DNA of 64,000 bases from assembly GCA_016786585.1 (NCBI GenBank), contig JAEUUI010000028.1:248001-312000 (forward strand), given 5' to 3'. Below, in pieces: positions 3,323 through 18,703 of this stretch (position 1 is the first letter of the stretch; every line of letters begins with the position of its first letter). The DNA comes from Cyclobacteriaceae bacterium. Its GTDB lineage: Bacteria > Bacteroidota > Bacteroidia > Cytophagales > Cyclobacteriaceae. The notes beneath the pieces were generated by a model. It was given only the letters and a program-made list of their open reading frames with translations. It searched no databases and was not told the DNA's origin. The position numbers were made by a program, and so were the translations under genes.

Positions 3323-3514
3323 TTATTTTTTCGGCTCTTGCTTAGCTGAGGTTTCTTTGTCAACTCCACGCTTTACCTCGCTGTCGAACAGCATGCGAAC
3401 CGAAGGCGTGTACGTATCGTCATACTGGCCGCTCTTCATGCTCCACAGGAACACACCCAAAAAGATAACCGCAATCGTTAAGCTGATCGAAATTAATAAT
3501 GCAATGATCGACAT
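3323..3514 (-). CDS. ccoS: cbb3-type cytochrome oxidase assembly protein CcoS
   Basis: This 63-residue single-helix membrane protein has the CcoS pattern: a hydrophobic N-terminus, then FLWSMKSGQYDD and a short charged tail containing RMLFD. CcoS is needed for insertion of heme b and copper into the CcoN subunit of cbb3 oxidase. The gene follows the acetyl-CoA hydrolase gene after 9 bp and is the last of four genes sharing a promoter with tandem FNR-like boxes. The structural oxidase genes ccoNOP are not in the window. Confidence 0.9.
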   Translation of the reverse strand: MSIIALLISISLTIAVIFLGVFLWSMKSGQYDDTYTPSVRMLFDSEVKRGVDKETSAKQEPKK

Positions 3515-4855: not shown

Positions 4856-7252
4856 TCAGGTAATGTTTTTGAATTTACGTTTGGCAACCAGCTTCACAGC
4901 CAGTGTTGAGAAGGATACCACACTGATACTGCTGATCGGCATCAGGATGGCTGCTACAAGGGGAGTCAGGTGTCCGCTGACGGCAAAACTTAATGCAATG
5001 GCATTATAAAAGAACGAGATGGCAAAGCCTGATTTCAAAATCGTTGCCGAGGCACGTGTAAGCTCCAGCATCTTGTCGAGTTTGCTGATCTCACTTCCGT
5101 GAAGGATGCCATCGCACGCAGGTGTAAACACTCCGGTATCATCCGTTACAGCAATGCCAACGTCAGCCTGTTTCAACGCACCCGCATCATTCAAACCATC
5201 GCCCACCATCATGACGGTATTGCCTTTTGCCTGAAGCTCGTGGATGTAGGCAAGCTTGTCGTGCGGACTCTGGTTAAACAGCAGTGTAGTCGATTCATTG
5301 AATATGTGCGACATCGGCTGTTTTTCCGTTTCATGGTCGCCCGAGAGCAATGCTTTGCATTTATTACCGAGGCGCTGAATCATGGCTGAAATGTTTCTGC
5401 GCACCATGGTCCGGATCATGAAGTAACCTTTTATTTCATCATCGATCGATACAAATACATACGATGCTGACTGATCAAGCTTTTCATGGAAACCGGTGAA
5501 TGCTGCGGATCCGATTTTATACACCTTGCCTTGCAGGTGTGCCTGAATTCCCTTACCGGGAAGTTCCCGGAAATCATCAACCGGTACGCTGGCAGCTTTG
5601 CGGATATAGTCATGAACGAATCTGCTGAGCGGATGTGTGGAGAAACCGGTAAGCAATTTTATTTTTGCAAGTTCGGCTTCATCAAGTTCACCGATCAGGT
5701 CTACGTCCGGATCCTGGCCGTGTGTAACCGTGCCGGTTTTATCGAATACCACGGCATCAATCGTTCCCATACGTTCCACCACATCGGCATTCTTTAAATA
5801 AAGTTGTCTTTTACCGAGCTCGCGCAACACGCTTCCCATTGTGAAAGGTGCAGCCAGCGCCAGTGCACACGGACAGGCAACCATCAGCACCGAAGTTATT
5901 ACCAGCCACATCGATGCAGGCTCAGTCACATACCAGTACACTGCTGTTACGGCTGCAATGCCAAGCACAACCCAGGTAAAATTCCGGGCCGCCCGGTCGA
6001 TTATTTTCTTGTATTTGCTTTCGTTTACTTTCTTGAATGCATCGCTGTTCCATAAACTGGTCAGCTGACTTTGTGAAGTACTTTTCTCAACTCCGAGGCT
6101 TACGGCAGTACCGATCAGTCTTCCGCCTGCAAAAACCTTGTCACCGCTCTTAGCTTTTACCGGCTTCGCTTCGCCGGTAACAAAGCTGTAGTCGATGTAA
6201 GCGGAGCCATCCAGCAGTATACTGTCGGTGGGAACAAGTTCAAGATTCCGGATACGGATGGTATCACCTTTAACCAGATGATAAATCACTACCGGTTTCC
6301 ATTCACCATCGGAGTCAAGGCGATGAACAGCCAGCGGAAAATAGGAGGTGTAGTCGCGATCGAACGCGAGACTTTCGTATGTTTTGCTTTGGAACCAGCG
6401 GCCAATTAAGAGGAAGAAAACAAGACCGGTGAATGAATCGAGATAACCCGGGCCTGTTGCAGTGGCGATGTCATATGCACTCCGGAAAAATAACGCGAGC
6501 AGTCCGGCAGCAATGGGTACATCAATGTTGATTTGCTTCTGCTGGAAACTGCGAACAGCTGCGCGGAGGTAATCGATGCCGCTGTAGAATAAAACCGGTA
6601 CGGATAACGCAACGTTGAGCCACGCAAAAATGCGGGTAAGTGTGTGATCGGCCTGGTCGATCCCCAAATATTCCGGGAACGAAAAGAGCATCACGTTGCC
6701 AAACGCAAAACCGGCAATGGCAAGCTTGAGTACGAGCGATCGATCCGTGCGGGGCTTTACTTTTTTTTCCTGTTCGAGGGTGATGCGCGGGGCATATCCC
6801 ACGGATGCTAACAATCCGGCTACGGTACCTAGGGAGATAACGGCTGGGTTGAAGTCAACGTGGACAGTCTTCTTTGCGAAATTTACTTTCGAATCGACCA
6901 CACCGCGATTCAGTTTGGAAAGATTTTCCAGCAGCCAGATACACGATACGCAGTGAACAGAAGGAATAAAGAAATCCGCGGAAGCGAACGAAGGGGAGTT
7001 GAAGGTTAAAACCTTCGCAGAAATTTCGGGCTCATCAAGATACCCATACGAGGTATCGGTGATGGCAGGAGTTTTGGTTCCCGGAGTTGAATTAAGATCA
7101 TAATACTCGCACAGGTTGTTGCTGTCCAGGATTTCATACACCGTTTCGCACCCCTTGCAGCAAAACGGCTTATCGTCACGCCAGTGAATTTCTTCACAGG
7201 CAGCACCGCAATGAAAACACGTGGTTTCAGCAACAACGTCTGTACGAGTCAT
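4856..7252 (-). CDS. ccoI: Copper-translocating P1B-type ATPase CcoI/FixI
   Basis: This 798-residue heavy-metal P-type ATPase exports Cu(I) for assembly of the cbb3 oxidase copper site. It begins with a Cys-rich metal-binding module (CFHCG and CCKGC, residues 12-35), followed by an HMA-like domain with a CVSC pair, then membrane helices. The permeation motif CPC is at residues 460-462, the phosphorylation motif DKTGT starts at D504, and HPLS and GDGLND motifs follow. The CFHCG/CCKGC N-terminus is typical of the CcoI/FixI branch rather than CopA. It sits 10 bp after a universal stress gene and upstream of the CoA-transferase and ccoS. Confidence 0.92.
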   Translation of the reverse strand: MTRTDVVAETTCFHCGAACEEIHWRDDKPFCCKGCETVYEILDSNNLCEYYDLNSTPGTKTPAITDTSYGYLDEPEISAKVLTFNSPSFASADFFIPSVHCVSCIWLLENLSKLNRGVVDSKVNFAKKTVHVDFNPAVISLGTVAGLLASVGYAPRITLEQEKKVKPRTDRSLVLKLAIAGFAFGNVMLFSFPEYLGIDQADHTLTRIFAWLNVALSVPVLFYSGIDYLRAAVRSFQQKQINIDVPIAAGLLALFFRSAYDIATATGPGYLDSFTGLVFFLLIGRWFQSKTYESLAFDRDYTSYFPLAVHRLDSDGEWKPVVIYHLVKGDTIRIRNLELVPTDSILLDGSAYIDYSFVTGEAKPVKAKSGDKVFAGGRLIGTAVSLGVEKSTSQSQLTSLWNSDAFKKVNESKYKKIIDRAARNFTWVVLGIAAVTAVYWYVTEPASMWLVITSVLMVACPCALALAAPFTMGSVLRELGKRQLYLKNADVVERMGTIDAVVFDKTGTVTHGQDPDVDLIGELDEAELAKIKLLTGFSTHPLSRFVHDYIRKAASVPVDDFRELPGKGIQAHLQGKVYKIGSAAFTGFHEKLDQSASYVFVSIDDEIKGYFMIRTMVRRNISAMIQRLGNKCKALLSGDHETEKQPMSHIFNESTTLLFNQSPHDKLAYIHELQAKGNTVMMVGDGLNDAGALKQADVGIAVTDDTGVFTPACDGILHGSEISKLDKMLELTRASATILKSGFAISFFYNAIALSFAVSGHLTPLVAAILMPISSISVVSFSTLAVKLVAKRKFKNIT

Positions 7253-7262
7253 TTTCTTTTGG

Positions 7263-8117
7263 TTACGCTGTTACAGGTTCATTCTTCATCACGTACGACC
7301 ACACCAGTTTATCGGTATGATTTACCAGCGATTCGGTCAGGCTGCCATAAAACATATGGGCGATGCCTTTGCGACCGTGGGTACCCATCGCGATCAGGCT
7401 GGCGTCCATGGACTTGGTAAAATCCACAATGCCTTCTTCAGCGCTCAGGTGATTGTACGTGTTGATTGTATAGTTTTTGAACTGGAAGCGTTTTACAAAC
7501 TGCTCTAGTCGCTTGTTGGTTTCAGTATCCGTAGTAAAGTTCAGCGGAGTGTTTACCCATAAGATGTGCAGATGTGCTCCGAAGAAATGCTGGAGTTCTT
7601 TCACCTTCATGACCAGATCTTCCTGGAGTTCCGTTTCGAGTGTATTCGGAAATACGATATTCTTGATCGGGCCTTTGAACGTGTCTTTCACTACCAGTAC
7701 AGGTACTGTTGAATGACGGACAATTTTTTCAGCGTTCGAGCCGATGAAAAGCTCCCGTACACCACTGGCTCCGTGCGAGCCCATGATAAGGGTATCGATC
7801 TGATGGTCGTGGGAGTAACGCACAATCATGTCGGAAACTTTTCCGAACAGTACTTCAGTAACAACCTTAACCCGGTCTTTGTTATAAGTCTTCTCAACAA
7901 TGTCAAATTCTTTATCAGCTTTTTCCTTCAATTCTTCCATCAAATCCTGTTCGAAAGACAACACAGGCATGAGAACGGAATCGTGTAACACCGGCAATTC
8001 AACAACGTGCAGCAGGTGCACGGAGCTGTTGGGTGACTTGGCGGCAATATCCAGCGCAAACTGAAAAGCGTTTAGCGCTTGTTGCGAGAAATCGCAGGGG
8101 ACCAATAGCTTTTTCAT
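7263..8117 (-). CDS. Universal stress protein, tandem UspA domains
   Basis: Two UspA domains are fused in 284 residues. Both keep the ATP-binding G-2X-G-9X-G-S pattern: MGSHGASGVRELFIGS in the first and MGTHGRKGIAHMFYGS in the second. The start at 8117 (MKKLLVPCDFS) is preferred to the longer open frame because the domain begins there and the upstream region contains promoter elements. It is the first gene of the Usp-ccoI-CoA transferase-ccoS operon. A -7 element TATTTTTG lies at 8143-8136 and tandem FNR-like boxes lie beyond it, so induction under low oxygen or by a CRP-family signal is expected. Confidence 0.9.
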   Translation of the reverse strand: MKKLLVPCDFSQQALNAFQFALDIAAKSPNSSVHLLHVVELPVLHDSVLMPVLSFEQDLMEELKEKADKEFDIVEKTYNKDRVKVVTEVLFGKVSDMIVRYSHDHQIDTLIMGSHGASGVRELFIGSNAEKIVRHSTVPVLVVKDTFKGPIKNIVFPNTLETELQEDLVMKVKELQHFFGAHLHILWVNTPLNFTTDTETNKRLEQFVKRFQFKNYTINTYNHLSAEEGIVDFTKSMDASLIAMGTHGRKGIAHMFYGSLTESLVNHTDKLVWSYVMKNEPVTA

Positions 8118-8135: not shown

Positions 8136-8254
8136 CAAAAATAGCCCTACTGCGGGTCGCAGAACTTGATGACTATCACAGGCGGAACTGATTTTTATCA
8201 TCCGGGCATTGTGACCCGGGTCATGGGTTGCGGGGCGGGGTGCTGGTAGCTTTC
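8136..8254. promoter_or_regulatory. Divergent promoter with three FNR/CRP-like boxes
   Basis: Three 12-bp palindromes stand in line: TGATGACTATCA (8167-8178), TGATTTTTATCA (8189-8200) and TGACCCGGGTCA (8212-8223). Centres are 22 and 23 bp apart. A minus-strand -7 element TATTTTTG (8143-8136) begins 29.5 nt from the first centre, and a plus-strand TAGCTTTC (8247-8254) begins 29.5 nt from the third. The middle box is therefore the distal site of both promoters. With a start point about 12-13 nt past the beginning of the -7 box, the proximal boxes lie near -42, the class II activator position of FNR and CRP. The boxes are seen; the regulator is inferred. Confidence 0.75.
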
Positions 8255-8386
8255 GTAAAATTTGAAGTATGAAAACTATTGGCCGCACCCCGAAATTCAG
8301 CCAGAAACTGATTGCAACACGTTCAGCAACCTGCGAATCTCCGGGCACGGCATAATGCCCTTTATCCCCTTAAACCCCCTTACGTT

Positions 8387-9613
8387 ATGCAACTCAATCG
8401 AAAATTCGCTTACCTGACCATACCTGCGATCTACCTGATTGCCGGGTTGGTGTGGATCACGCTGAGTGATGCCACGTTATTCAGCATCAGTTCGTTGCCC
8501 GGCTGGGCTAACAGTCATTTTCAGCAACTGGCCATCTACAAAGGGTATTTGTATGTTATTGTGACCTCGGTGTTGCTGGCTCTTCTTATTAAACGGTCTT
8601 TTGGATCCATCGTAAGCGTGAAGAATGATTTCATGCGACTCTTTGCAGAGAACCCGAACCCGATGTGGATCTACGATTCAAAAACACTGAAATTTCTGCT
8701 TGTTAATGATGCCGCTTGCAAGGCATACGGCTATACGCGTGAAGAATTCTGTAACCTAAACCTGTTTGCAATTCGCCCGGTAGAAGAGTACGACAGGCTC
8801 AGGGATACTGTATTCATGCACCGGGAGGGACTGTACACCACGGAAAAATGGCTGCACAAAGGGAAGGATGGAGTGCCATTTTACGTAAATATTTTTGCCA
8901 ACGACACACGCTACGCGAACAAGCCTTGCCGCATGATAACGGCTATAAATGTCAACAAAGAACATCTTGCTGAAATTGAACGCAATAGCCTGAAGCAGGC
9001 ACTCGACAGTTCAGCCCTGGTTAGTGTTACCGATTTAAAAGGCAGTATCCTTCATGCTAACGGGAAATTCTGTGAGGTATCAGGTTATTCGGAAGCTGAG
9101 CTCATTGGAAAGAACCACGACATCGTTAACTCGGGTTATCACTCGTCTGAATTCTGGAGGGAAATGTGGCGGACGGTTGCCAAAGGAAAAACGTGGCGTG
9201 GCGATATCCGTAACAAACGCAAAGATGGTTCTTACTACTGGGTGGATACGTTCATTAATCCCGTTTATAACTCAGAAGGTAAAATTCATAAGTTTATGTC
9301 CGTGCGGTACCTGATTACCGAGCGCAAGCAACTTGAAAGCGAGCAGAATATTTTATTGAAAGACCTGTCGCATTATGCCTTTCAAACGTCACATGAACTG
9401 CGTGGTCCGGTAGCCCGCCTGTTGGGATTGACATCCCTGTTCAGTGAATACCCGGAGAAACAATTTGTTGTCGATAAGATTCGGGATACCACCGTGGAAA
9501 TTGATTCGGTGATCCTGAAGATGAATGAAGCACTCGACCGGAATGCGTATCCCATGCTGAAGAAATACGAAGAGCGTTCGGGTTGTTTACGGGCTTCCAA
9601 AAGGGCCAGCTGA
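8387..9613 (+). CDS. Membrane PAS-PAS sensor with histidine-kinase DHp but no ATPase domain
   Basis: The 408-residue protein has two N-terminal membrane helices (about 8-28 and 50-72), two PAS domains (about 80-200 and 205-320; the second contains NGKFCEVSGYSEAELIGKNH) and a C-terminal dimerisation helix with SHELRGPVARLLG, whose His 336 sits where kinases are phosphorylated. The frame then stops about 70 residues later, without N, G1 or G2 boxes of a HATPase domain. The start at 8387 is chosen because the membrane segment begins there. It is transcribed divergently from the usp-cco operon behind its own FNR-like box. It may be a phosphoacceptor or a dimeric redox sensor needing a partner kinase. 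Confidence 0.8.
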   Translation: MQLNRKFAYLTIPAIYLIAGLVWITLSDATLFSISSLPGWANSHFQQLAIYKGYLYVIVTSVLLALLIKRSFGSIVSVKNDFMRLFAENPNPMWIYDSKTLKFLLVNDAACKAYGYTREEFCNLNLFAIRPVEEYDRLRDTVFMHREGLYTTEKWLHKGKDGVPFYVNIFANDTRYANKPCRMITAINVNKEHLAEIERNSLKQALDSSALVSVTDLKGSILHANGKFCEVSGYSEAELIGKNHDIVNSGYHSSEFWREMWRTVAKGKTWRGDIRNKRKDGSYYWVDTFINPVYNSEGKIHKFMSVRYLITERKQLESEQNILLKDLSHYAFQTSHELRGPVARLLGLTSLFSEYPEKQFVVDKIRDTTVEIDSVILKMNEALDRNAYPMLKKYEERSGCLRASKRAS

Positions 9614-9622
9614 TGAGGCGCG

Positions 9623-9656
9623 TTATGAAAATCAGCCTGCACAATGATCTTTATCA
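9623..9656 (+). promoter_or_regulatory. Tandem FNR-like boxes before the 9704 operon
   Basis: An exact palindrome TGATCTTTATCA occupies 9645-9656, and a one-mismatch copy TTATGAAAATCA occupies 9623-9634, with centres 22 bp apart as in the other promoters of this island. No good TAnnTTTG element is found at the expected distance (9680-9687 reads GATATTCA), so the promoter itself is less certain than the boxes. The likely target is the four-gene run starting at 9704. Confidence 0.6.
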
Positions 9657-9703
9657 GGCTGGCTGCATGCACCGCGTACGATATTCAGCATAAAATTTTT
9701 GCT

Positions 9704-10795
9704 ATGCGTATCCTGCTCATTATTATCATTTTTGTTCACGGAGTGTTACACATGCCGGGTTTTATAAAAGCATTTGGTATGGCTGAGTTACCCCAGTTGC
9801 CACACCCGATTTCGCGCATTCACGGAATCTTCTGGGCGGTTGCTTCCATATTGTTCATCGCTGCAGCCATGCTCTTCCTGAATTATAACAAGTGGTGGTG
9901 GCTTGTGTCGGTAATCGCATTGATAATCTCTCAATACCTCATCATCAGCGACTGGGAGGATGCCGGTTTGGGGACAGCCTTGAATATTGTTATCCTGCTG
10001 ATTACCATTGTCGGGTACGGTGTCTGGAGTTTCAGCAACACTTATCATAGTGAAGTAGAAAATCTGCGGAAGCAAAACCTGAAACAACAGGCTGTCATGC
10101 TTGAACAGTCGGACCTTGCGCATCTTCCTGAACCGGTGCAATTGTACATTCGCAATTCCGGTGCGCTCGGGCAACCGCGCGTACAAAACTTTCGCGTTGA
10201 CCTGGCCGGTGCGATCCGCAGCAGGAATGGCGATTGGATGCCCTTCACGTCCACGCAGTACAATTTTGTTGATCGCTCCGCACGATTTTTCTTTATGAAT
10301 GCTGTCAAGAGCAATCTCCCGGTAGCCGGGTTTCATTGCCTGAAGAACGGCAAGGCGTTCATGGACATTCGGTTGTTGTCGCTCTTTCGTGTACAGTATG
10401 CAGAAGGTTCGGTAATGAATAAAGCCGACACCGTTACTTTTTTCAATGACATGTGCTGCCTGGCACCGGCTACATTAATTGATCCGCGCATTAGCTGGCT
10501 GGATGCAGGCAACGGCCATGTAACTGCAATATTTAAAAATGATGACGTTGCGATTTCGGCCAGCCTGTTATTTAATGACCGCCATGAACTGGTGAACTTT
10601 ATATCGGAAGACCGCCCTGCGTTGCAAAACGATGGCCAATTTGAGCAAATACCATGGTCAACACCGCTTAGCCAGTATGACGACCGGCTCGGCTATCATT
10701 TGCCCCGGCATGCCGATGCTGTTTACGGGTATCCCGATGAAAGTTTTATGTATGGCCGATTCGAGATCACGAAAGTAAGTTACAACGTAGCATGA
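9704..10795 (+). CDS. DUF6544-like protein with N-terminal membrane helices
   Basis: The 363-residue protein starts with four hydrophobic helices (to about residue 110), including a first segment with HGVLHMPGF. A soluble domain follows, with LPEPVQLYIRNSG and a beta-rich region resembling the DUF6544/DUF6920 family of uncharacterised bacterial proteins. The start at 9704 (MRILLI) is chosen because the frame upstream overlaps the regulatory palindrome. Its TGA overlaps the ATG of the next gene (ATGA), so they are translated together. No catalytic motif is evident. Confidence 0.72.
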   Translation: MRILLIIIIFVHGVLHMPGFIKAFGMAELPQLPHPISRIHGIFWAVASILFIAAAMLFLNYNKWWWLVSVIALIISQYLIISDWEDAGLGTALNIVILLITIVGYGVWSFSNTYHSEVENLRKQNLKQQAVMLEQSDLAHLPEPVQLYIRNSGALGQPRVQNFRVDLAGAIRSRNGDWMPFTSTQYNFVDRSARFFFMNAVKSNLPVAGFHCLKNGKAFMDIRLLSLFRVQYAEGSVMNKADTVTFFNDMCCLAPATLIDPRISWLDAGNGHVTAIFKNDDVAISASLLFNDRHELVNFISEDRPALQNDGQFEQIPWSTPLSQYDDRLGYHLPRHADAVYGYPDESFMYGRFEITKVSYNVA

Positions 10796-11214
10796 GAACG
10801 CTTACCACAAACTCGCCTGAACTCCGCAGCTTTTTGAAATATGTTGCGCTATTTCTGCTTGCGCTTAATGGCATTGGCGCCTTTATCGGGAGTATCCCCA
10901 TGATGCTCGATCCCAGCGGCACAACCAGCAATATTCAGTTGAGATACCTGGAATATACTCCGTTCGCTGATTTTCTGATTCCGGGTATTGTTCTTTTTGT
11001 GTGTAACGGACTGTTGAGTGTGTTCGTATTTATTGCGCTGGCGTTTAACTGGCGGTTTCATGGCTGGCTGGTGTTTTTGCAAGGCATGGTGCTGACGATC
11101 TGGATTATTGTTCAGGTAATCATGTTGCGTGACTTTAATTTTCTGCAAGTAGCGTTCGGTCTGATTGGTATTGCGCTGATGATTCTGGGTCATTACCTTT
11201 CACGCTTTCGATAA
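10792..11214 (+). CDS. Four-helix membrane protein of unknown function
   Basis: This 140-residue protein has four predicted transmembrane helices (about 17-37, 60-82, 85-105 and 115-135) and no recognised motif. Its start codon overlaps the stop of the DUF6544-like gene and only 4 bp separate it from the beta-CASP nuclease gene, so it belongs to the same operon. The overlap suggests that it works with the DUF6544-like membrane protein. Confidence 0.7.
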   Translation: MRTLTTNSPELRSFLKYVALFLLALNGIGAFIGSIPMMLDPSGTTSNIQLRYLEYTPFADFLIPGIVLFVCNGLLSVFVFIALAFNWRFHGWLVFLQGMVLTIWIIVQVIMLRDFNFLQVAFGLIGIALMILGHYLSRFR

Positions 11215-11218
11215 GCCT

Positions 11219-12616
11219 ATGAATGTCAGCGTAAAATTTTTGGGTGCAGCGCGTTCCGTTACCGGATCACGATACCTGGTTACGGTGGGTAACTTCCGGA
11301 TGTTGTTTGACTGTGGTCTCTTCCAGGGATTGAAAGAACTGAGGCTGCGTAACTGGGATGAGTTTCCTGTTGATCCGTCAACCATTGACGCCGTGGTAAT
11401 CAGTCATGCGCACATCGACCACTCTGGTTATCTGCCGCGACTGGTGAAAGAAGGTTTTGCGGGTAAAATCTATTGCACTCCGCCAACCGCTGAATTGATG
11501 AAAATTATGCTGCTTGATTCTGCCAAGCTGCAGGAGGAAGAGGCTGCCTTTGCGAGAAGGAAAGGATATTCACGGCATGCCGATCCGCAACCGCTGTACA
11601 CGAGTGCAGATGCTGACCAGGTATTTCCGCTTATTCATACAGTAGCGTATGAAGAACGGGTGCCGATTCATGCTTCGGTTTCTATTTGTTATCATGATGC
11701 CGGTCATTTATTGGGATCTGCCATTACGGAAGTTTTCATCAAAGCCGATTCGCAAACCAAAAAAATTGTTTTCTCGGGTGACCTAGGTCGCCAGAATGAT
11801 GCGCTGTTGCATCCGCCAAAGCGGATCCGCGATGCCGATGTTTTATTTATCGAATCAACGTACGGAACAAAAGACAATCCTGCGCTTGATCCGCTGGCCG
11901 ACCTGGAACGAATTGTAAAAGCCACGCGCCAGCGAAACGGTGTTTTACTGATACCGGCCTTTGCCGTGGGGCGAACACAAGTGCTGCTTTATTATCTGCA
12001 TCTTTTGATGGAAGCCGACCGGATTCCGGATATACCGGTTTATATAGACAGCCCGATGGCGATTTCTACCACGTACTTGTATTACCGGTTCCCGGAATAT
12101 CACAAAGTCGATTTTAGCAATTCGTTGTTTGCGCGGCAGCTTGAAACCAACATGCTCGTGTTTGTGAAAAACGAACTGCATTCGAAAAGTTTAAACGAGA
12201 TAAAAAGCAATGCGATTATCATTTCGTCAAGCGGAATGATGAGCGGAGGCCGGATTCTTCATCACATGTATCACAGACTTCGCAATGAACAGGACACCCT
12301 GTTGGTGTCAGGCTATCAGGCCGAAGGAACCCGCGGTCGCGACCTGGTCGACAAAAAGCTAACGATCCGGATTTTTGGAGAAGAGGTTCCTGTGAAGTGT
12401 CATGTTGAAAATATGACTTCACTTTCCGGTCACGCCGACCGCGGTGAGTTGTTCGAATGGATGAAAGCCTTCGAAACCAAACCCAAGCTGGTGTTCACCG
12501 TTCATGGCGAAGCTCCTGGTGTTGATCAATATGCACAGGCGATCCGGGATCGGTTCGGCTGGAATGTGGCCGTGCCGGAATACCTGGAATCCTTTTCATT
12601 GTTTGACGGAATTTAG
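11219..12616 (+). CDS. Metallo-beta-lactamase/beta-CASP RNA-processing nuclease
   Basis: The 465-residue protein has the full beta-CASP nuclease layout. The metallo-beta-lactamase motif HAHIDHSG is near residue 63, DAGHLLGSA supplies a further ligand, and motif A (IPAFAVGRTQ), motif B (SSSGMMSGGR) and the C-terminal RMMBL region (SLSGHADRGEL, TVHGEAPG) follow. Relatives are zinc-dependent ribonucleases of the CPSF73/YSH1 type. It lies 4 bp after a membrane gene and 2 bp before the AI-2E transporter gene. In other bacteria such nucleases often sit in stress gene clusters, and this context agrees. Confidence 0.9.
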   Translation: MNVSVKFLGAARSVTGSRYLVTVGNFRMLFDCGLFQGLKELRLRNWDEFPVDPSTIDAVVISHAHIDHSGYLPRLVKEGFAGKIYCTPPTAELMKIMLLDSAKLQEEEAAFARRKGYSRHADPQPLYTSADADQVFPLIHTVAYEERVPIHASVSICYHDAGHLLGSAITEVFIKADSQTKKIVFSGDLGRQNDALLHPPKRIRDADVLFIESTYGTKDNPALDPLADLERIVKATRQRNGVLLIPAFAVGRTQVLLYYLHLLMEADRIPDIPVYIDSPMAISTTYLYYRFPEYHKVDFSNSLFARQLETNMLVFVKNELHSKSLNEIKSNAIIISSSGMMSGGRILHHMYHRLRNEQDTLLVSGYQAEGTRGRDLVDKKLTIRIFGEEVPVKCHVENMTSLSGHADRGELFEWMKAFETKPKLVFTVHGEAPGVDQYAQAIRDRFGWNVAVPEYLESFSLFDGI

Positions 12617-12618
12617 CG

Positions 12619-13737
12619 ATGAGAACTCAAACACGATCTGTAATCCGACACGTTCCTGCACCGGCAAAGAACATGTTCATTCAGGGGCTCCAGATTGCTG
12701 TGTATGGTTCGCTGATCCTGTACTTCGGCCGTACGTTATTTGTTCCATTAAGTTTTGCATTGCTCATCAGCTTTGTATTGTACCCGGTATGCCACTGGCT
12801 TGAGCGAAAGGGTTTCGGTAGAATGACGGCAATCGTGGTGTCGATCACCGGGTTGATGCTTGCTGCCTTGCTGATCGTATTTCTTTTGATCAATCAGTTT
12901 TTTGGATTTGTGGAGGAATGGCCATTGATCAGCGACAAGCTTGCAGTGGCCATTAACGAGTTCAGGCTCTTCCTTGAAAACAGCTGGGGCTTCTCCATGG
13001 CTGCACAGAACCGCGTTCTCGCCTCAATCACGGAGCAGTCGGGCAGTGCCATTGTCCAGGTGCTCCGGCATTTATTCAGCGCTTCTGCTTTTTCTCTCGT
13101 GATGCTGATTCTTGTTCCGGTCTACGCTGTCTTGATTCTCTACTATCGCAAAACCTGGATGCTGGTGCTGACGAGAATTTTTTCATCAGAAAAAAAAGAA
13201 AAGCTGCATGAAATGATTGCGCTCACAATTCAATCGTATTACAGCTTTATTAAGGGCATGGCGATTGTGTATTTAATTGTCGGAGTTTTGAACAGCGTGG
13301 GGTTGTTGCTGCTCGGGGTTCCGCATGCTATACTTTTCGGATTTATCGTGGCAGTGTTAACATTCATTCCGTATGTTGGGATCATCATCGGTTCGTTGTT
13401 GCCAATTGCCATGGCATGGATCACATTCGATTCGGTCTGGTATCCGGTAGGCGTAGTGGCGATTTTTACATTTGTGCAATACCTGGAAGCAAATATCATT
13501 TTCCCGCTTGCGGTAAGCCGTAAACTCAATGTGAATACACTCATTATGCTGCTGGCCATTTTTGCAGGTGGAATTTTATGGGGGATGGCTGGAATGATTT
13601 TGTTTGTACCGTTTGTCGGGATAGCACGATTGATTGCCGGCCACAACCCGCGTTGGAAAACCTTGGCGCTGATTCTTGGCGCGAAAGAAGACTGGAAGTT
13701 TCCGCATTCTTTTGATGAAGATCAGACACCGGTCTGA
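12619..13737 (+). CDS. AI-2E/PerM family membrane transporter
   Basis: A 372-residue integral membrane protein with about eight helices and the AI-2E transporter family pattern: an N-terminal helix pair with FALLISFVLYPV, a large periplasmic segment, then GVPHAILFGFIVAVLTFIPYVG and a C-terminal helix pair. Members have been linked to autoinducer export or Na+/H+ exchange, and the substrate here is unknown. Its last codons contain a TGAT-N4-ATCA palindrome (13713-13724) that appears to serve the next promoter, so coding and regulatory information overlap. Confidence 0.87.
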   Translation: MRTQTRSVIRHVPAPAKNMFIQGLQIAVYGSLILYFGRTLFVPLSFALLISFVLYPVCHWLERKGFGRMTAIVVSITGLMLAALLIVFLLINQFFGFVEEWPLISDKLAVAINEFRLFLENSWGFSMAAQNRVLASITEQSGSAIVQVLRHLFSASAFSLVMLILVPVYAVLILYYRKTWMLVLTRIFSSEKKEKLHEMIALTIQSYYSFIKGMAIVYLIVGVLNSVGLLLLGVPHAILFGFIVAVLTFIPYVGIIIGSLLPIAMAWITFDSVWYPVGVVAIFTFVQYLEANIIFPLAVSRKLNVNTLIMLLAIFAGGILWGMAGMILFVPFVGIARLIAGHNPRWKTLALILGAKEDWKFPHSFDEDQTPV

Positions 13738-13777
13738 CCATAATCATGCCCTTTACTGAATGCGTGAAGTAGTTTTC
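13713..13777 (+). promoter_or_regulatory. Tandem FNR-like boxes and -7 element before 13798
   Basis: TGATGAAGATCA (13713-13724, inside the end of the transporter gene) and TGACCATAATCA (13735-13746, covering its stop codon) have centres 22 bp apart. TAGTTTTC, a seven-of-eight fit if the two free positions are ignored, begins at 13770, 29.5 nt after the proximal centre. This is the same arrangement as the promoters at 8143 and 16921. Confidence 0.7.
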
Positions 13778-13797
13778 GGTGAACAAAAATCACGCTT

Positions 13798-14202
13798 ATG
13801 AAAACGCCTGTGACTAAAACCGACCACCTGCTCGAAGCAAACCTCGAATGGTTGCACAGCCAAACCGTTGAATGGCTTCGCGAAGTGGATTTTTGGAAAG
13901 ATGAAGCAACGTTCTTTTACAACCTGCTTCGCAGAAAGGAAGTGACTAACGCATTTCCGGCACGCGAACTTGCTGAACTTGAAACGGAACTGATCTGCAT
14001 CGCAGGTCAGGATATTACTGCATTAAAAACAAAACTGCAGCAGCATGAAGAGCAGTTAAAATCACTGCTCTCGCAACCACACTGTGATCAGGAGTTCGAA
14101 TACCGGCAACGCCATCGTGAAATTATGGTTGATGTAGTTACATTGGAAAACCGGATACGCGATTATAAAAAATCGGTATTCCATTATGTGAAGCAGCCAT
14201 GA
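13798..14202 (+). CDS. Coiled-coil protein of unknown function
   Basis: This 134-residue protein is highly charged and helical, with two coiled-coil stretches (about 60-95 and 100-125) and no membrane segment. The N-terminal part has an aromatic-rich motif (LREVDFWKDEATFFYNLL). I do not recognise a named family. It is the first gene behind tandem FNR-like boxes, and its stop overlaps the start of the following membrane gene (ATGA), so the pair is probably co-translated. The context places it in the island's stress response. Confidence 0.72.
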   Translation: MKTPVTKTDHLLEANLEWLHSQTVEWLREVDFWKDEATFFYNLLRRKEVTNAFPARELAELETELICIAGQDITALKTKLQQHEEQLKSLLSQPHCDQEFEYRQRHREIMVDVVTLENRIRDYKKSVFHYVKQP

Positions 14203-14384
14203 TCCGGAATCTCGACCATGCCGATTCGGTAGTTAAGATTACGCTGGCCATATCCGTACTGCTTTGTTATGCGTTTGGCATTATTGCCGGGCCCTTTGCT
14301 CACGCACTGGGTTTTCTTTCGGTTATTGTGATTGTAATTTTTGTTGTGCGATATGTTCGTGTAAACAAAAAACGTAAGCCGTAA
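14199..14384 (+). CDS. DUF2892-like small membrane protein
   Basis: A 61-residue protein with two hydrophobic helices and an N-terminal NLDHADSVVKITLAISV segment resembling DUF2892 proteins (the inner-membrane part of YgaP-like proteins), which begin with a short polar turn and a helix pair. The start overlaps the previous stop. The basic C-terminus (NKKRKP) suggests a cytoplasmic tail by the positive-inside rule. No function can be read. Confidence 0.65.
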   Translation: MIRNLDHADSVVKITLAISVLLCYAFGIIAGPFAHALGFLSVIVIVIFVVRYVRVNKKRKP

Positions 14385-14399
14385 TGATCTTCCCTTACT

Positions 14400-14486
14400 C
14401 TATTCTCCCAATACCTTGATGGTGAGTGCCACCAAAATGAGAATCAGGATGATGATGAACAGCACGTGGTTTTTATATTTTTTCAT
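14400..14486 (-). CDS. 28-residue single-helix membrane peptide
   Basis: Six bases after the DUF892 gene, an ATG at 14486 opens a 28-codon frame: a basic start (MKKYKNH), an almost pure Leu/Ile/Val helix and a short LGE tail, ending in TAG. This is the form of a bona fide small membrane peptide, and the position at the end of the GreA-like/DUF4136/DUF892 operon supports translation. No homology can be assigned. Confidence 0.5.
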   Translation of the reverse strand: MKKYKNHVLFIIILILILVALTIKVLGE

Positions 14487-14492
14487 ACGTAA

Positions 14493-14996
14493 TCAGACGT
14501 CCGCTGTCTTGCGATATTTGTTAAACCGGTAGATAAAGAGCGTGGAAAGAGCCTTGGTTGCTTCGGTTTCCTGCTCAAGAATTTGTTGAATAAGATCAAC
14601 CACGGTGTCAAGCTCCAGCTCGACCGCCAGCATGTATGCCATCCGGTAGTTTGAAATCTTAACGGCCTGGATATTCTGAATGCCTCCAATGATCAAAACA
14701 TCCTTCAGGTAATGGTTGTGTACGGATGCGGTTAACCTTACGGTATCGTTGATCAGTTGTGTCATGGTATCGCGATGGCCGGACACGGGTTCCTGCATCA
14801 GGTAGTTAAAAATGCGTTCAAGTTTAAGCAGGTTATTTTCGCATCCGCAAACCTGTTCCTCCAGTTGAACCGCCAGCGTTGGTGAGGTCAGCTTGTCGGC
14901 CAGTACCCGGAAATGATCGCGCATTAACTGTTCGGAATGAAACAGATTGCTGAGCGTATAGGCCAGTGCATCGGAAACGGAGTGAATTGTTTTCAT
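14493..14996 (-). CDS. DUF892/YciF-like ferritin-fold stress protein
   Basis: The 167-residue all-helical protein resembles DUF892 (YciE/YciF) proteins, four-helix bundles induced by stress. The start at 14996 (MKTIHSVSDALAYTLSNLFHSE) is used because the DUF892 pattern of an early helix leading into LxxLxxxE begins there; the longer frame overlaps the upstream gene. Acidic and His residues are spaced as in ferritin-like folds, but metal ligands cannot be assigned. It lies 4 bp downstream of the DUF4136 lipoprotein. Confidence 0.72.
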   Translation of the reverse strand: MKTIHSVSDALAYTLSNLFHSEQLMRDHFRVLADKLTSPTLAVQLEEQVCGCENNLLKLERIFNYLMQEPVSGHRDTMTQLINDTVRLTASVHNHYLKDVLIIGGIQNIQAVKISNYRMAYMLAVELELDTVVDLIQQILEQETEATKALSTLFIYRFNKYRKTADV

Positions 14997-15000
14997 AACT

Positions 15001-15537
15001 TCAAATCTTTTTGCGATTCGGGAATTCAACGAACATTTCTTTAACGGCCTGATTAACCAACCTGTTGATTTGCTCAGGCGATGTAATGCCGTCAACATCC
15101 GATACCGCCCAACTGCGCCAGATCAGCTGGTTGATCCGGGTATCGGTGAGATCAAGTACTAAGGTTCCCTGTTTGTAGGTATAAACATTTTGTTGTTTAC
15201 GCGTGTAGTATGGACTGTACGCATAGCCGAAGGGTTCGGTAGCAATCATCGTTTTGTCTTCCACGATAATGTGGTATTGCAAAAGCAGATCGGGTTTTTC
15301 GTTGGTGAGCTGATAGCCACGTTTGGAGAGTTGCCGCATCACAGCCTCTTTAATACGCTTGTCGTTAAGGGCGGTATAGTAATCGGCATTACGGAACACA
15401 GTTGAATCGGCCAATGCCCAGTTAAACGTTGAATACTTCCATAAATCATAATCAGGATCGAGGTCGGTTTGCACCTGAAGTGACGGGCTGCATCCGCCCA
15501 GTATGAAAATCATCAGTAAAATTATAGTTACTCGCAT
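15001..15537 (-). CDS. DUF4136 domain lipoprotein
   Basis: This 178-residue protein has a signal peptide with lipobox GGC (Cys 16) and the DUF4136 pattern: DxDPxYDLWKYSTFNW near the start, a central DLLLQYHI strand, then GTLVLDLTDTRINQLIWRSWA. DUF4136 lipoproteins are widespread in Bacteroidota and Proteobacteria envelopes without a known function. It is separated by 2 bp from the GreA-like gene and 4 bp from the DUF892 gene. Confidence 0.85.
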   Translation of the reverse strand: MRVTIILLMIFILGGCSPSLQVQTDLDPDYDLWKYSTFNWALADSTVFRNADYYTALNDKRIKEAVMRQLSKRGYQLTNEKPDLLLQYHIIVEDKTMIATEPFGYAYSPYYTRKQQNVYTYKQGTLVLDLTDTRINQLIWRSWAVSDVDGITSPEQINRLVNQAVKEMFVEFPNRKKI

Positions 15538-15539
15538 CG

Positions 15540-16013
15540 TTAAAATATTTCACTGATTGCGTAACGATTCCGGCCAAATTCAAATTCGTCTCCGGCCTGC
15601 TTTCCTTTCATCGCCAGGAAAAGCTGGCTATGGGTAGAAAGTCCGGTAAACACTTCACCGTCAACATTCACCTGACCCGCACTTACTGAGATGAAAAATT
15701 TTCCGCGATTGGTCACCACTACTGCACCGGCTTCGGGTGTGGAATGCGAAACTTCATACAGTGTTTTCAGGTAGTTCAGTACGTTCATATCCGATATGGC
15801 GAATGAAAGTGATTCGTTAATCGCGTTGATCTCATCGGCTTGCTGCGAGCTTTGCGACATTTCGGTGCTGTCGTATTCTTCTTCGTTTCCCAGGCCTTCC
15901 CGGGTGAGAATAGCTTTAATGCGATTACTGAAATCGTCTAACTGATGCTGTTGCTTTTTGATGCATTCTTCCAGAATCCGATGCCGGAGGATGCTGTAGT
16001 TTTTTGCTTTCAT
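15540..16013 (-). CDS. GreA/GreB C-terminal-domain-like protein
   Basis: The 157-residue protein has an N-terminal helical part (residues 1-80) and a C-terminal beta domain with AVVVTNRGKFFISVSAG and GDEFEFGRNRYAISEI. This resembles Bacteroidota GreA/GreB-like proteins, often mislabelled as 3-oxoacyl-ACP synthase. The Gre coiled-coil tip acids that stimulate RNA cleavage are not evident, so a classical Gre role is uncertain. A CAACTTTG -7 element ends 4 nt before the ATG, predicting a leaderless or nearly leaderless mRNA. It heads a four-gene operon behind the box at 16072-16083. Confidence 0.7.
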   Translation of the reverse strand: MKAKNYSILRHRILEECIKKQQHQLDDFSNRIKAILTREGLGNEEEYDSTEMSQSSQQADEINAINESLSFAISDMNVLNYLKTLYEVSHSTPEAGAVVVTNRGKFFISVSAGQVNVDGEVFTGLSTHSQLFLAMKGKQAGDEFEFGRNRYAISEIF

Positions 16014-16017
16014 AAAA

Positions 16018-16083
16018 CAAAGTTGGTTAACCCTATCGGCTGATAATCAGAACAATGCTCAACCCGTGAAGTGATTTTTATCA
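16018..16083 (-). promoter_or_regulatory. FNR-like box and -7 element before the GreA-like operon
   Basis: TGATTTTTATCA at 16072-16083 is identical to the central box at 8189-8200. The -7-like CAACTTTG (16025-16018) starts 52.5 nt from its centre, which matches the distal-box spacing seen elsewhere in the island. The proximal position has no clear box, but CTGATAATCAG at 16040-16050 is a shorter palindrome between them. Confidence 0.6.
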
Positions 16084-16091
16084 TACCGGTT

Positions 16092-16898
16092 CTAATGATT
16101 CAATGGGAAAATGTAAAGCGGACATTTGCTTACCGTGGCCAGGTGTTTGATCGCGCTCCGGTGAAAGATTCGCTTTATCCAGCTGTCATGCGTAACACAA
16201 AGGGCCAGTAAATCAGGCTGATTGTGCTGCAGGTAATGATCAATCGCATCCGGAACCTGTCGCGCGTGAACCGTGTGGAACCGGAACTTCCTTTTTCCGG
16301 AAGTATTGAATTTCATTTGAAGATGTTTTAATTCTTCTTCGGCTTCCGCGCTAACCGATTCTTCCATTACCTGTAAGATTGTAAGCTCACTTTGGTATTT
16401 GCTGATCAGCCATTGTAACGGCTGCAAGGGAAGCATGAGTTTGCGCCAGTAGTCGAACGCAAACGTTACTTTCTGAAAGCCCTGGTATGACGTACCATCC
16501 GGAACTAAAAGCACGGGCAGTGTGCTGGCCCGGATGATGGGGTATGCGTGCCCGCCTGAAAGAAGTGCCAAAAGATCGTCCGGGCCACTTGTACCCATCA
16601 CTAACATATCGTATTCGGCTTCACATTCTTTTATGGCATAGCCCAGTTGCTGGTACGATATCCGGATATTGGAGTCGCAGGATATTTTGAACGTGCGGCT
16701 GACCTGTAAGCTTTGCAGTTCCAGTTCATCGCGAATCAGGGTAAGCGAAGGTTTGAGATTTACATCCAGCACATCGAAGATGGAACCAATGTGGAGCAGC
16801 GTTAATGTACTCCCGGTAACCTGCGCAAACTTTGCAGCGAAGGCGATTGCGTTATCGGCTGCAGGGGAAAAATCTGTCGGGCAGAGAATGCGTTTCAT
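16092..16898 (-). CDS. Divergent tandem universal stress protein
   Basis: Two UspA domains in 268 residues, starting at MKRILCPTDFS (16898) after the promoter elements. Unlike the other two Usp proteins here, the ATP-binding loops are degenerate: MGTSGPDDLLALLSGG in the first domain lacks the second glycine position, and CVTHDSWIKRIFHRS in the second lacks the glycines altogether. It is therefore probably a non-nucleotide-binding member acting by protein contacts. Its promoter carries tandem FNR-like boxes shared with the YtxH gene on the other strand. Confidence 0.87.
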   Translation of the reverse strand: MKRILCPTDFSPAADNAIAFAAKFAQVTGSTLTLLHIGSIFDVLDVNLKPSLTLIRDELELQSLQVSRTFKISCDSNIRISYQQLGYAIKECEAEYDMLVMGTSGPDDLLALLSGGHAYPIIRASTLPVLLVPDGTSYQGFQKVTFAFDYWRKLMLPLQPLQWLISKYQSELTILQVMEESVSAEAEEELKHLQMKFNTSGKRKFRFHTVHARQVPDAIDHYLQHNQPDLLALCVTHDSWIKRIFHRSAIKHLATVSKCPLYIFPLNH

Positions 16899-16913
16899 GG
16901 GTACGGGCTTTAT

Positions 16914-17009
16914 CAAAGTTGTTCCGGATGCTTTTTAAAACGCGTGATGATAATCAGCGCATCGGCTGATAGTTATCATGCAGCTGCCACGGACTGTTAA
17001 ATATTTTAG
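16914..17009. promoter_or_regulatory. Divergent promoter with tandem FNR-like boxes (usp / YtxH)
   Basis: TGATGATAATCA (16945-16956) and TGATAGTTATCA (16967-16978) have centres 22 bp apart. On the minus strand CAACTTTG (16921-16914) begins 29.5 nt from the first centre. On the plus strand TATTTTAG (17002-17009) begins 29.5 nt from the second. Each box is therefore proximal for one gene and distal (51.5 nt) for the other. This mirror symmetry is hard to explain unless both boxes are used. Confidence 0.75.
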
Positions 17010-17030
17010 CTGCCGGTAAAAACCGTGATT

Positions 17031-17288
17031 ATGAAAACGAGCAGAGCACTTTTAGGCGTTGTGGCCGGTTTGGCCGCAGGTGCAGCGTTAGGAATTTTGT
17101 TTGCCCCGGATAAAGGTGAAAAAACCCAGCGCAAAATCAGGCGCAAGGCAGAAGACTTGCTGGACGAAATGGAAGATGGTTTTGAAGACCGGTTCGGGCG
17201 TTTCCGCAACAGTACACGAAAAGTAAAACCATGTGAATGCGAATCGTGTTCGTGTGAACGCAAAGCCGGGCAGGTAACCGGGTCTTAG
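17031..17288 (+). CDS. YtxH domain protein with Cys-rich tail
   Basis: The 85-residue protein begins with a Gly/Ala-rich helix (LLGVVAGLAAGAALGILFAPDKG) typical of YtxH stress proteins, followed by a basic amphipathic helix. The C-terminus is unusual, with CECESCSC near residues 67-74, which could bind metal or form disulfides. The ATG at 17031 is preferred over the GTG two codons upstream. It is expressed divergently from the Usp gene through shared FNR-like boxes. Confidence 0.8.
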   Translation: MKTSRALLGVVAGLAAGAALGILFAPDKGEKTQRKIRRKAEDLLDEMEDGFEDRFGRFRNSTRKVKPCECESCSCERKAGQVTGS

Positions 17289-17325
17289 CAGAGGAGTAGG
17301 TTCATTGGCATTACGTTTGAGTTGA

Positions 17326-17337
17326 TGACCGTGGTCA
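17326..17337. promoter_or_regulatory. TGAC-N4-GTCA palindrome before DUF202 gene
   Basis: TGACCGTGGTCA is a perfect palindrome of the same half-site type as the FNR-like boxes, but its centre is only 18 nt from the DUF202 start codon at 17350. A protein bound there would block rather than activate transcription from a promoter upstream. It may be fortuitous. Confidence 0.35.
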
Positions 17338-17349
17338 AAAACAGACTTT

Positions 17350-17673
17350 ATGAAAACAGATTTAATTCTTCGTGAACATCTGGCCATTGAGCGTACCCGG
17401 CTGGCTAATGAAACCACACTGCTCGCGTACATCCGCACCGGGCTTTATTTTCTGGTGGCAGGTTCAACACTGGGGCAGATCGTCAACACAATTTTTTGGT
17501 CGATCGCAGGTACACCTCTGATTATTATCGGACTACTCATCATGATGACAGGCTTCTATCGCTTTACGCGGATAAAAAAGTCGATCGAATTAAGCAGAAA
17601 AAATATCGGGCAATCGAGCACAGAGTTTATCAATCTTGCGCGCGGTACGATGAACGACCTGGCCCCGGATTAA
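17350..17673 (+). CDS. DUF202 (YidH-like) membrane protein
   Basis: The 107-residue protein has the DUF202 signature: an amphipathic start with LAIERTRLANETTLLAYIRTGL, then two membrane helices (about 35-55 and 60-80) and a basic exit. DUF202 proteins are small inner-membrane proteins of unknown role. The gene follows the YtxH gene after about 60 bp and is closed by a strong intrinsic terminator at 17725-17747. Confidence 0.85.
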   Translation: MKTDLILREHLAIERTRLANETTLLAYIRTGLYFLVAGSTLGQIVNTIFWSIAGTPLIIIGLLIMMTGFYRFTRIKKSIELSRKNIGQSSTEFINLARGTMNDLAPD

Positions 17674-17724
17674 TTCAGGTTAGTTAAAAAATGCAGTGCC
17701 GGGGTGCAGACTGCAATTTTAAAG

Positions 17725-17747
17725 GCGGAGGTGACTCCGCTTTTTTT
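17725..17747 (+). terminator. Intrinsic terminator after DUF202 gene
   Basis: A six-base-pair stem GCGGAG/CTCCGC (17725-17730 and 17735-17740) with a GTGA loop is followed directly by seven T residues (17741-17747). This is a textbook intrinsic terminator for the YtxH-DUF202 transcript. Confidence 0.85.
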
Positions 17748-17752
17748 ATGAC

Positions 17753-17818
17753 TGATAAAAATCACTGTATCGCATGATGAAACCCTGATCACTCCGGGCG
17801 ATGATCGCGCTAAGTTTG
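17753..17818 (+). promoter_or_regulatory. FNR-like box, half box and -7 element before usp
   Basis: TGATAAAAATCA (17753-17764) is an exact palindrome. A second site 22 bp further (17775-17786) keeps only the left half TGAT. A perfect -7 element TAAGTTTG lies at 17811-17818 and begins 52.5 nt from the exact box and 30.5 nt from the half box, close to the distal and proximal spacing of the other promoters. Confidence 0.65.
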
Positions 17819-17851: not shown

Positions 17852-18703
17852 ATGAAAACGATTCTTGTTCCGACCGACTTTTCCAAGCATGCGCAGTGGG
17901 CTCTTCAAATGGCAGTTAAGATTGCCAGGAAGGCCAAGAGTAAAATTCTATTGTTGCACATCGTTGAACATCCTATCGCAGATTCGTTTAATGTAGAGGG
18001 TCAGATTGCAGTCGATCAGGGGTGGGAAGACAAGTTATTTACCCTTAAGCTGATCGAACAGGGCAGAATCAAACTTTTGGAAGCAGCCGATGCATTGACC
18101 GCTGAAGGTGTTGACGTTCGTGTGGCGCTGCGGATGGGTAATCCGTTTCATGGAATCAGAACTGAGATTCTTGAGCAGGAGGCTGAACTTGTGTTGATGG
18201 GTGCATCCGGTCATTCAACATTCGATGAACTCGCCCGCGGATCGAATTCCGATAAAGTGGTTCGGTATGCCAAGTGCCCGGTACTCACGGTTCATGAAGA
18301 GCCCGGTGATCAGCCCTTCAAAGATATTGTTTATGCTACCTCGCTGGCAGATCGAGAAAAGGATTTCGGTCATGTAGTAAAACGGCTGCAGGAAATTTTC
18401 GGATCGAACGTACACCTCGTACGGATCAATACCCCGATGAATTTTCAACCCGATCACATGGTAAAGTCTGCAATGATTCAGTTTGCCAAAAAACTAATGC
18501 TTCAGAACTATACCCTGAACATGGTGAGCGATTGGGATGAGGAGAATGGTATCATTCATTTTGCCTCAACGATTTCAGCCAACCTGATTTGCATGGCCAC
18601 GCATGGCTATCGCGGACTTTCGCATATTTTTATCGGCAGCATTGCCGAAGATGTGGTTAAGCATACTACGAAACCTGTGCTAACGTACGTGATGAGGAAC
18701 TAA
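17852..18703 (+). CDS. Universal stress protein, tandem UspA domains
   Basis: This 283-residue tandem Usp protein has intact ATP-binding loops in both halves (MGASGHSTFDELARGS and MATHGYRGLSHIFIGS). The start at 17852 (MKTILVPTDFS) is the domain start; the TTG two codons earlier is less likely. Sequence and length are close to the Usp protein encoded at 7263-8117, so the two may be paralogues from the same expansion. It stands alone behind its own FNR-like box and -7 element. Confidence 0.9.
   Translation: MKTILVPTDFSKHAQWALQMAVKIARKAKSKILLLHIVEHPIADSFNVEGQIAVDQGWEDKLFTLKLIEQGRIKLLEAADALTAEGVDVRVALRMGNPFHGIRTEILEQEAELVLMGASGHSTFDELARGSNSDKVVRYAKCPVLTVHEEPGDQPFKDIVYATSLADREKDFGHVVKRLQEIFGSNVHLVRINTPMNFQPDHMVKSAMIQFAKKLMLQNYTLNMVSDWDEENGIIHFASTISANLICMATHGYRGLSHIFIGSIAEDVVKHTTKPVLTYVMRN

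Follow-up and report, generated by a model that had tools for sequence, protein, structure and literature searches.

Proteins of the Crp/Fnr superfamily take part in several well-described regulatory systems. The iron-sulfur (Fe-S) sensors FNR and ANR recognize a TGA-N6-TCA core and control low-oxygen respiratory genes. The rhizobial FixL-FixJ-FixK cascade links a heme-PAS kinase to a receiver and, near cbb3 oxidase genes, to an output of the CRP/FNR type. At class II CRP/FNR promoters of Escherichia coli, the activator sits at -41.5 and overlaps the upstream promoter element; the available part of PMC5957442 gives -41.5, -61.5, and -93.5 as Crp positions. Here, we describe promoters that resemble parts of all three systems, in a 64,000-nt stretch (the window) of the genome of a Cyclobacteriaceae bacterium (assembly GCA_016786585.1; 4,186,351 bases in 30 contigs). 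The window corresponds to C16:248001-312000 (contig JAEUUI010000028.1), and positions without a contig prefix refer to it. Palindromic TGAT-N4-ATCA boxes, often in pairs, stand there at a fixed distance from the -7 promoter element, ahead of genes for cbb3 oxidase maturation and universal stress proteins (Usp), among others. We read these boxes as predicted sites of a Crp/Fnr-superfamily activator for a regulon of low-oxygen, high-affinity respiration and stress genes, the most likely binder being a receiver-CRP fusion protein (RR-CRP) whose gene (C16:199078) precedes the window by 48 kb; our rough probability for this reading is two in three.

Although the systems named above are established, a search of the open-access literature found neither the double-box rule nor a kinase/RR-CRP pair as cbb3 regulator in Bacteroidota, and it yielded little on oxygen regulation in this phylum. 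The promoters provide a testable grammar for low-oxygen respiration in Bacteroidota, with candidates named for both sensor and regulator, and they also precede genes of unknown role (DUF892, DUF4136, DUF202, YtxH, several Usp, and the gene at 13798).

The initial annotation of the window pointed to eight exact palindromes (TGATNNNNATCA) and three TGAC variants, all of which are present as described: the exact copies at 8167, 8189, 9645, 13713, 16072, 16945, 16967, and 17753, and the variants at 8212, 13735, and 17326. It also claimed that paired centers are 22 to 23 bp apart, and the measured spacings are 22, 23, 22, and 22 bp. The shared distance of 29.5 nt between the proximal center and the -7 element (TAnnTTTG) was likewise found at the five promoters for which it was proposed, 8143(-), 8247(+), 13770(+), 16921(-), and 17002(+); only the first of these -7 elements is perfect (6/6), the others having a single mismatch. 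In a mapped flavobacterial promoter set, TAnnTTTG spans -12 to -5, according to the available part of PMC9723704, which places the box centers at -41.5 and -63.5, the former close to the -42 estimated before. With starts predicted in this way, a palindromic box centered at about -41.5, as in class II promoters, occurs at five window promoters and in relatives. The geometry does not extend to all 11 boxes: those at 9645 and 17326 lie outside it, and at 16072 and 17753 it holds only for a lone distal box.

The sites are far denser than expected. The whole window has 12 exact sites, compared with a mean of 1.5 and a maximum of 5 in 100 dinucleotide shuffles. The genome has 244 exact sites in 4.186 Mb. 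At that density, a 9.6-kb segment should contain 0.56, and eight were found here (Poisson P(≥8) = 1.4e-7). Equal density across the genome, which the initial annotation had set as a refutation, was thus not observed; instead, the 10-kb bins of C16 at 250 and 260 kb contain four and five exact sites, and every other C16 bin contains two at most. Tandem pairs (TGAY/RTCA, gap 8-13) are rarer still, with six in the whole genome, four of which are in the segment 8136-17818. Shuffles and offset profiles were used to set expectations in preference to the reversed motif (14 copies versus 244 genome-wide), because the reversed motif contains TAG, which is presumably depleted.

The same geometry recurs well beyond the window. 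Within the genome, exact boxes followed by TAnnTTTG at a gap of 9 to 37 gave nine combinations (one in the reversed control), five of them with a gap of 23. The constrained genome scan that had been suggested as a check, allowing one mismatch, found the gap-23 pattern at 24 places (three in the reversed control) and the distal, gap-45 pattern at 19 (six in the reversed control), nine of the latter on C16. In a set of 60 family genomes from 60 genera, strict pairs (gap 6-15 permitted, a gap of 10 corresponding to 22 bp between centers) were found in 27, and the spacing was exactly 22 bp in 33 of 43 pairs (binomial 7e-25 at p = 0.1). For the 42 distinct family pairs of loci L074-L113 (own genome excluded; TAnnTTTG scored at ≥5/6), 27 of the 84 orientations have the -7 element at 29.5 nt, and at no other offset did the count exceed four. 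Across 198 genomes of the phylum, with 12 spacings allowed, the 22-bp spacing accounted for 22 of 40 strict pairs inside the class and one of 19 outside.

A larger sample came from 80 loci, mostly of Bacteroidota, that were retrieved by alignment of RR-CRP and contain 683 distinct oriented boxes. The alignment also matched orthologues of C16:199078 in Ohtaekwangia koreensis and Chryseolinea serpens. TAnnTTTG was found 97 times at 29.5 nt and 108 times at 51.5 nt from these boxes, followed by 13 times at 30.5 nt and 22 times at 52.5 nt, with a mean of 6.2 and a maximum of 21 at the remaining offsets. When the loci were divided into four groups, 51.5 nt gave more than the background maximum in each of them and 29.5 nt in three. 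Eight control palindromes or altered spacers gave counts of zero to four at 29.5, 51.5, and 52.5 nt and no peak. Boxes chosen solely by a -7 element at 51.5 nt (108 cases) have an unselected second box 22 bp downstream, with TGA at 86/68/87% and TCA at 93/88/86%. The resulting consensus is a distal TGAYAAAARTCA, N10, a proximal TGAYNNNNRTCAT, N22, and TAnnTTTG. Compared with E. coli class II promoters, the frequent second box at -63.5, a fixed 22 bp from the first, and the Bacteroidota TAnnTTTG core are the distinguishing features. The idea that the distal box is the stronger one was dropped, since it is true on C16 (nine versus six) and fails in the 80 loci. The box/-7 geometry is a rule that reaches far beyond the window, rather than a local accident.

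Conservation at orthologous positions, another check proposed at the outset, was found at the Usp-ccoI-ccoS promoter, for which an alignment was possible in the five genera whose Usp is closest (G015, G024, G033, G044, and G017). The six-genus alignment has 20 invariant columns, 12 of which are in the two boxes, four in the -7 element, and three in the start codon, and there are no gaps between the boxes and the -7 element. The -7 element is 6/6 in four of the five relatives and weak (4/6) in G044, and G024 has one mismatch in the proximal box. In a near relative with 98% RR-CRP identity (L237, a Cyclobacteriaceae metagenome-assembled genome), the Usp/HK (histidine kinase), YceI, and ccoNO promoters are conserved. 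As to same-genus stretches around pairs, L317 has a promoter ahead of a YceI gene, and a strict promoter scan of L318 gave nothing. A chance cluster of palindromes or an effect of coding sequence could draw on the 244 genome-wide copies, some of which are inside genes, as are two window matches (4933 in the ccoI open reading frame [ORF] and 11695 in a beta-CASP ORF). Such an origin is contradicted by the clustering of tandem pairs, the orthologous alignment, and the control motifs, and the peaks in offset and spacing rule it out, so that we regard it as practically dismissed.

Several of the genes behind these promoters are respiratory. On C16, the double-box promoter type also precedes ccoNO, behind which lie FixP-, FixG-, and FixH-type genes and one for a DsbD_2-type membrane protein, as well as YceI and two Usp genes, one of them small. 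At ccoNO, the boxes and the -7 element are conserved across relatives, and the identity of the protein binding there is a prediction. Elsewhere in the genome, feoA-feoB is preceded by a single box at 29.5 nt from the -7 element, and the nos operon (L025, C6:46487-54571) by a pair spaced 23 bp apart whose -7 element is weak (4/6). In relatives, tandem pairs adjoin ccoNO, ccoI/ccoS, Usp, DUF4136, and beta-CASP genes, and several other pairs have no query gene beside them. The nos row at L025 comprises nos_propeller, NosL, NosD, and parts of an ABC transporter; its last gene, C6:53924, is of the Crp type and has a TGACTTTAGTCA box of its own upstream. This arrangement is what a regulon responding to nitric oxide or redox state, and not to oxygen, might look like, and one could also imagine that the boxes are repressor sites. 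Both ideas seem very improbable: cbb3 oxidase genes are frequent neighbors of the boxes, and centers at -41.5 and -63.5 relative to the -7 element are activator positions, with no conserved TTG at -33 in the promoters of the 80 RR-CRP loci.

Candidate regulators were sought among the seven HTH_Crp_2 and 16 cNMP_binding matches of the genome. The protein at C16:199078 has Response_reg, cNMP_binding, and HTH_Crp_2 domains in one chain, and its gene adjoins that of a PAS histidine kinase with HisKA and HATPase_c domains. A PDB search with the kinase PAS domain gave 14 matches, with FixL ranked first (1.3e-16); besides FixL, they consist of DosP-type heme PAS chains and a single multi-sensor kinase. 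The His and the GxGR Arg of this domain align with those of FixL, which we take to be the heme-ligating and heme-pocket residues of that protein; the hallmarks of a FixL-type kinase, a PAS domain with the aligned His plus kinase domains, are thereby present at the sequence level. A kinase match occurs in all 80 RR-CRP loci, Usp in 43, and ccoNO in 29, and the His is aligned in 61 of the 79 ORFs directly upstream of RR-CRP. Ten of the 28 RR-CRP loci in the family have a box ahead of the kinase gene. All six of the most similar loci, the present one included, are among these ten. In one other genus (G016; L098/L230, C6:176000-181000), the kinase-, receiver-, and CRP-like stretches appear as separate neighbors, in the same order as in the fusion, and the separate CRP has no cysteines.

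These features suggest a mechanism in which low oxygen would relieve inhibition of the FixL-like kinase, which would then phosphorylate the adjacent receiver-CRP fusion and thereby enable the fused CRP dimer to bind. Two dimers might sit side by side at -63.5 and -41.5, 22 bp or two helical turns apart. The proximal dimer would stand in for a -33 element, recruiting or contacting RNA polymerase in class II fashion with support from the distal dimer, with some promoters retaining a single good box. Where promoters diverge (8.1-8.3 kb and 16.9-17.0 kb), the boxes could serve both directions. Binding, activation, the oxygen signal, and the identity of the binding Crp/Fnr protein are predicted here from sequence. 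The expected response agrees with the available part of PMC9723704, in which the cbb3 oxidase of Flavobacterium psychrophilum is reported to be induced under oxygen limitation. Homologues of FixO, FixP, FixG, FixH, and FixS (Pfam) are present in the genome. The likeness to rhizobia has its limits: with receiver and CRP in one protein, the relay in which FixJ activates a separate fixK is missing, and the cascade would be shortened to two proteins. The box also lacks the flanking T of the rhizobial box TTGANCNNGATCAANG, a consensus taken from the available part of PMC4999443.

Several observations weigh against RR-CRP as the main binder or against a uniform promoter rule. At the 13 loci closest to the present one, the count at 29.5 nt (5) is below the background maximum (6), which only 51.5 nt (16) and 52.5 nt (7) exceed. 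Promoters of the 80 loci with an exact proximal box show the distal box at about 60 to 70% per base, which makes the double box frequent, not universal, and some promoters proximal-only; moreover, these loci include close relatives, so that their promoters are not all independent. In the window, a 6/6 -7 element is found at only two of seven promoters. As for the kinase, the His is not aligned in 18 of 79 upstream ORFs (14 with another residue and four with gaps), only 29 of 79 have the Arg of FixL, and in 18 of the 28 family RR-CRP loci the range tested ahead of the kinase shows no box. Boxes of the same geometry also occur in genera for which no full-length fusion was among the matches listed (up to about 34 candidates scored per genome), the fusion being present in at least 28 of the 60 genera. 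Finally, an orphan Crp/Fnr protein is encoded at C16:220691. Its ORF is preceded by two TGATTTTTATCA boxes, at distances of 44 and 100 nt, and its recognition helix is similar to that of RR-CRP (TAKETLVRLLKEF versus TASESVIRVLSDF); these two features mean that the orphan may be the binder.

If so, the boxes would be bound chiefly by C16:220691, a homologue of Cys-rich FNR-type regulators, and RR-CRP would act elsewhere or tune it. The best NCBIfam score of the orphan is for Fnr, though far under the cut-off. In 31 of the 60 genera, its homologues have CxxC plus further cysteines and a near-identical recognition helix (hand count; loci L185 and L230 omitted as duplicates), and in several genera such homologues adjoin 22-bp pairs. 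Yet CxxC, the N-terminal motif that together with a further cysteine marks Fe-S FNR, was found in none of the 15 cNMP-domain proteins read in the present genome, out of 16 (L040 left out), C16:220691 included. For this reason, an Fe-S FNR was rejected as regulator in this genome, and "FNR" names a class of box and promoter, not a shown Fe-S oxygen sensor; the initial annotation's FNR/CRP-type regulon with tandem boxes is supported by density, geometry, and conservation, and stands in that restricted sense. Furthermore, exact pairs are retained in G015, G033, and G044, and G024 has a pair with one mismatch, whereas the best C16:220691-like matches listed there are RR-CRP fusions. RR-CRP is present in 19 of 28 genera without the Cys-rich FNR and in nine of 31 with it (Fisher p = 0.004, ignoring kinship, and only supportive). 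These are hand counts in which "without" was partly judged from weak or RR-CRP-only matches; G014 was excluded, its gene being cut by a contig end, and some of the 28 genera (G003, G005, G016, G056, and G059) have Cys-bearing CRP proteins with a different helix. Taken together, we consider the orphan unlikely to be the chief binder.

The distribution of CxxC raises a further prospect. With CxxC-bearing homologues in 31 of 60 genera and a copy lacking CxxC here, the promoters could be older than the present sensor. We tentatively suggest, at somewhat less than even odds, that a double-box promoter shared across the class Bacteroidia has kept its DNA code while the sensor was exchanged, being a Cys-rich FNR-like protein in many genera and a FixL-like kinase with RR-CRP in others, including this one. 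If true, a single set of promoters may serve two different types of oxygen sensor.

Overlapping with the assignment to RR-CRP, and not exclusive of it, is the possibility that several Crp/Fnr paralogues share the boxes, competing or handing over as rhizobial FnrN and FixK do, which recognize very similar sites according to the available part of PMC4999443. The helices of C16:199078, C16:220691, and C6:53924 all read E..IR or E..VR, in keeping with such sharing; box centers, however, vary by group, the C6 and C7 paralogues having TGACTTTAGTCA and TGACTACGGTCA nearby. We find this account less likely than not. Two other proteins were set aside as main regulator. The weak cNMP protein of the window (20104-20679) scores under the Pfam cut-off. 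The paralogue L006 (C7:433657, helix SREVISRLLKKL) has an outer-membrane-efflux/ACR_tran row as its neighbors, and no cco gene was seen there; it is a possible regulator of the C7 boxes. At L023 (C7:425000-435000), three boxes with a -7 element at 29.5 nt, two of them with TGAC centers, surround an efflux row (OEP, ACR_tran) and a Crp-type gene whose helix is SREVISRLLKKL, and they are possibly a second, separate class II regulon.

Within the window, the first divergent promoter region has three boxes. Box TGATGACTATCA (8167-8178) is proximal (-41.5) to the minus-strand Usp/ccoI/ccoS promoter, whose -7 element TATTTTTG (8136-8143, minus strand, 6/6) predicts a +1 at about 8131. Box TGATTTTTATCA (8189-8200) is distal for both directions, at -63.5 on the minus and -64.5 on the plus strand, and box TGACCCGGGTCA (8212-8223) is proximal (-41.5) to the plus-strand promoter, with the -7 element TAGCTTTC (8247-8254, plus strand, 5/6) and a predicted +1 at about 8259. 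The minus-strand row is headed by a double Usp (7263-8117; two stretches of PF00582), followed by a copper P-type ATPase (4856-7252; Pfam E1-E2_ATPase and ATPase-cat_bd), called ccoI because ccoS adjoins in the row, an acetyl-CoA hydrolase/transferase family protein (3524-4828; Pfam), and the cbb3 oxidase maturation gene ccoS (3323-3514; Pfam FixS). On the plus strand, 3' of the divergent promoter, lies a PAS-domain protein (8387-9613; Pfam PAS families, membrane segments by eye) with no kinase domain match in the Pfam scan. A 28-codon ORF with an ATG start (8269-8355) begins about 10 nt past the predicted start of the PAS transcript and stops before the PAS gene; it may be a leader peptide or due to chance. 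The next box, TGATCTTTATCA (9645-9656), is about 48 nt ahead of a DUF6544 ORF, and, read by eye, TAnnTTTG is absent at either distance on the plus strand.

Two boxes, TGATGAAGATCA (13713-13724; distal, -63.5) at the end of an AI-2E transporter ORF and TGACCATAATCA (13735-13746; proximal, -41.5), precede the -7 element TAGTTTTC (13770-13777, plus strand, 5/6) of the gene at 13798. Its product (13798-14202, plus strand) has 134 residues and matches no family above the cut-off; a homologue adjoins a tandem box pair in G016 (L098) too. Further on, box TGATAAAAATCA, read on the minus strand (16072-16083), occupies a distal position with a degenerate proximal partner, and the -7 element CAACTTTG (16018-16025, minus strand, 5/6) lies 52.5 nt from it. 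The minus-strand row behind it (14493-16013) starts with a 157-residue ORF without a Pfam family (15540-16013), followed by DUF4136 (15001-15537) and DUF892 (14493-14996), both by Pfam. The predicted transcription start coincides with the A of the ATG at 16013, which suggests that the message may be leaderless or that the true start codon is further in.

The second divergent region uses two boxes in a reciprocal way: TGATGATAATCA (16945-16956) is proximal for the minus and distal for the plus promoter, and TGATAGTTATCA (16967-16978) is the reverse. The minus-strand -7 element CAACTTTG (16914-16921, 5/6) belongs to a Usp (16092-16898, minus strand; PF00582), and the plus-strand element TATTTTAG (17002-17009, 5/6) to a YtxH-like protein (17031-17288) and a DUF202 protein (17350-17673), both plus-strand and assigned by Pfam. 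Box TGACCGTGGTCA (17326-17337) lies 24 nt from the DUF202 start codon. The last box, again TGATAAAAATCA (17753-17764), is in a distal position with a degenerate proximal partner (TGATGAAACCCT), 52.5 nt from the -7 element TAAGTTTG (17811-17818, plus strand, 6/6), which serves a double Usp (17852-18703, plus strand) with two stretches of PF00582.

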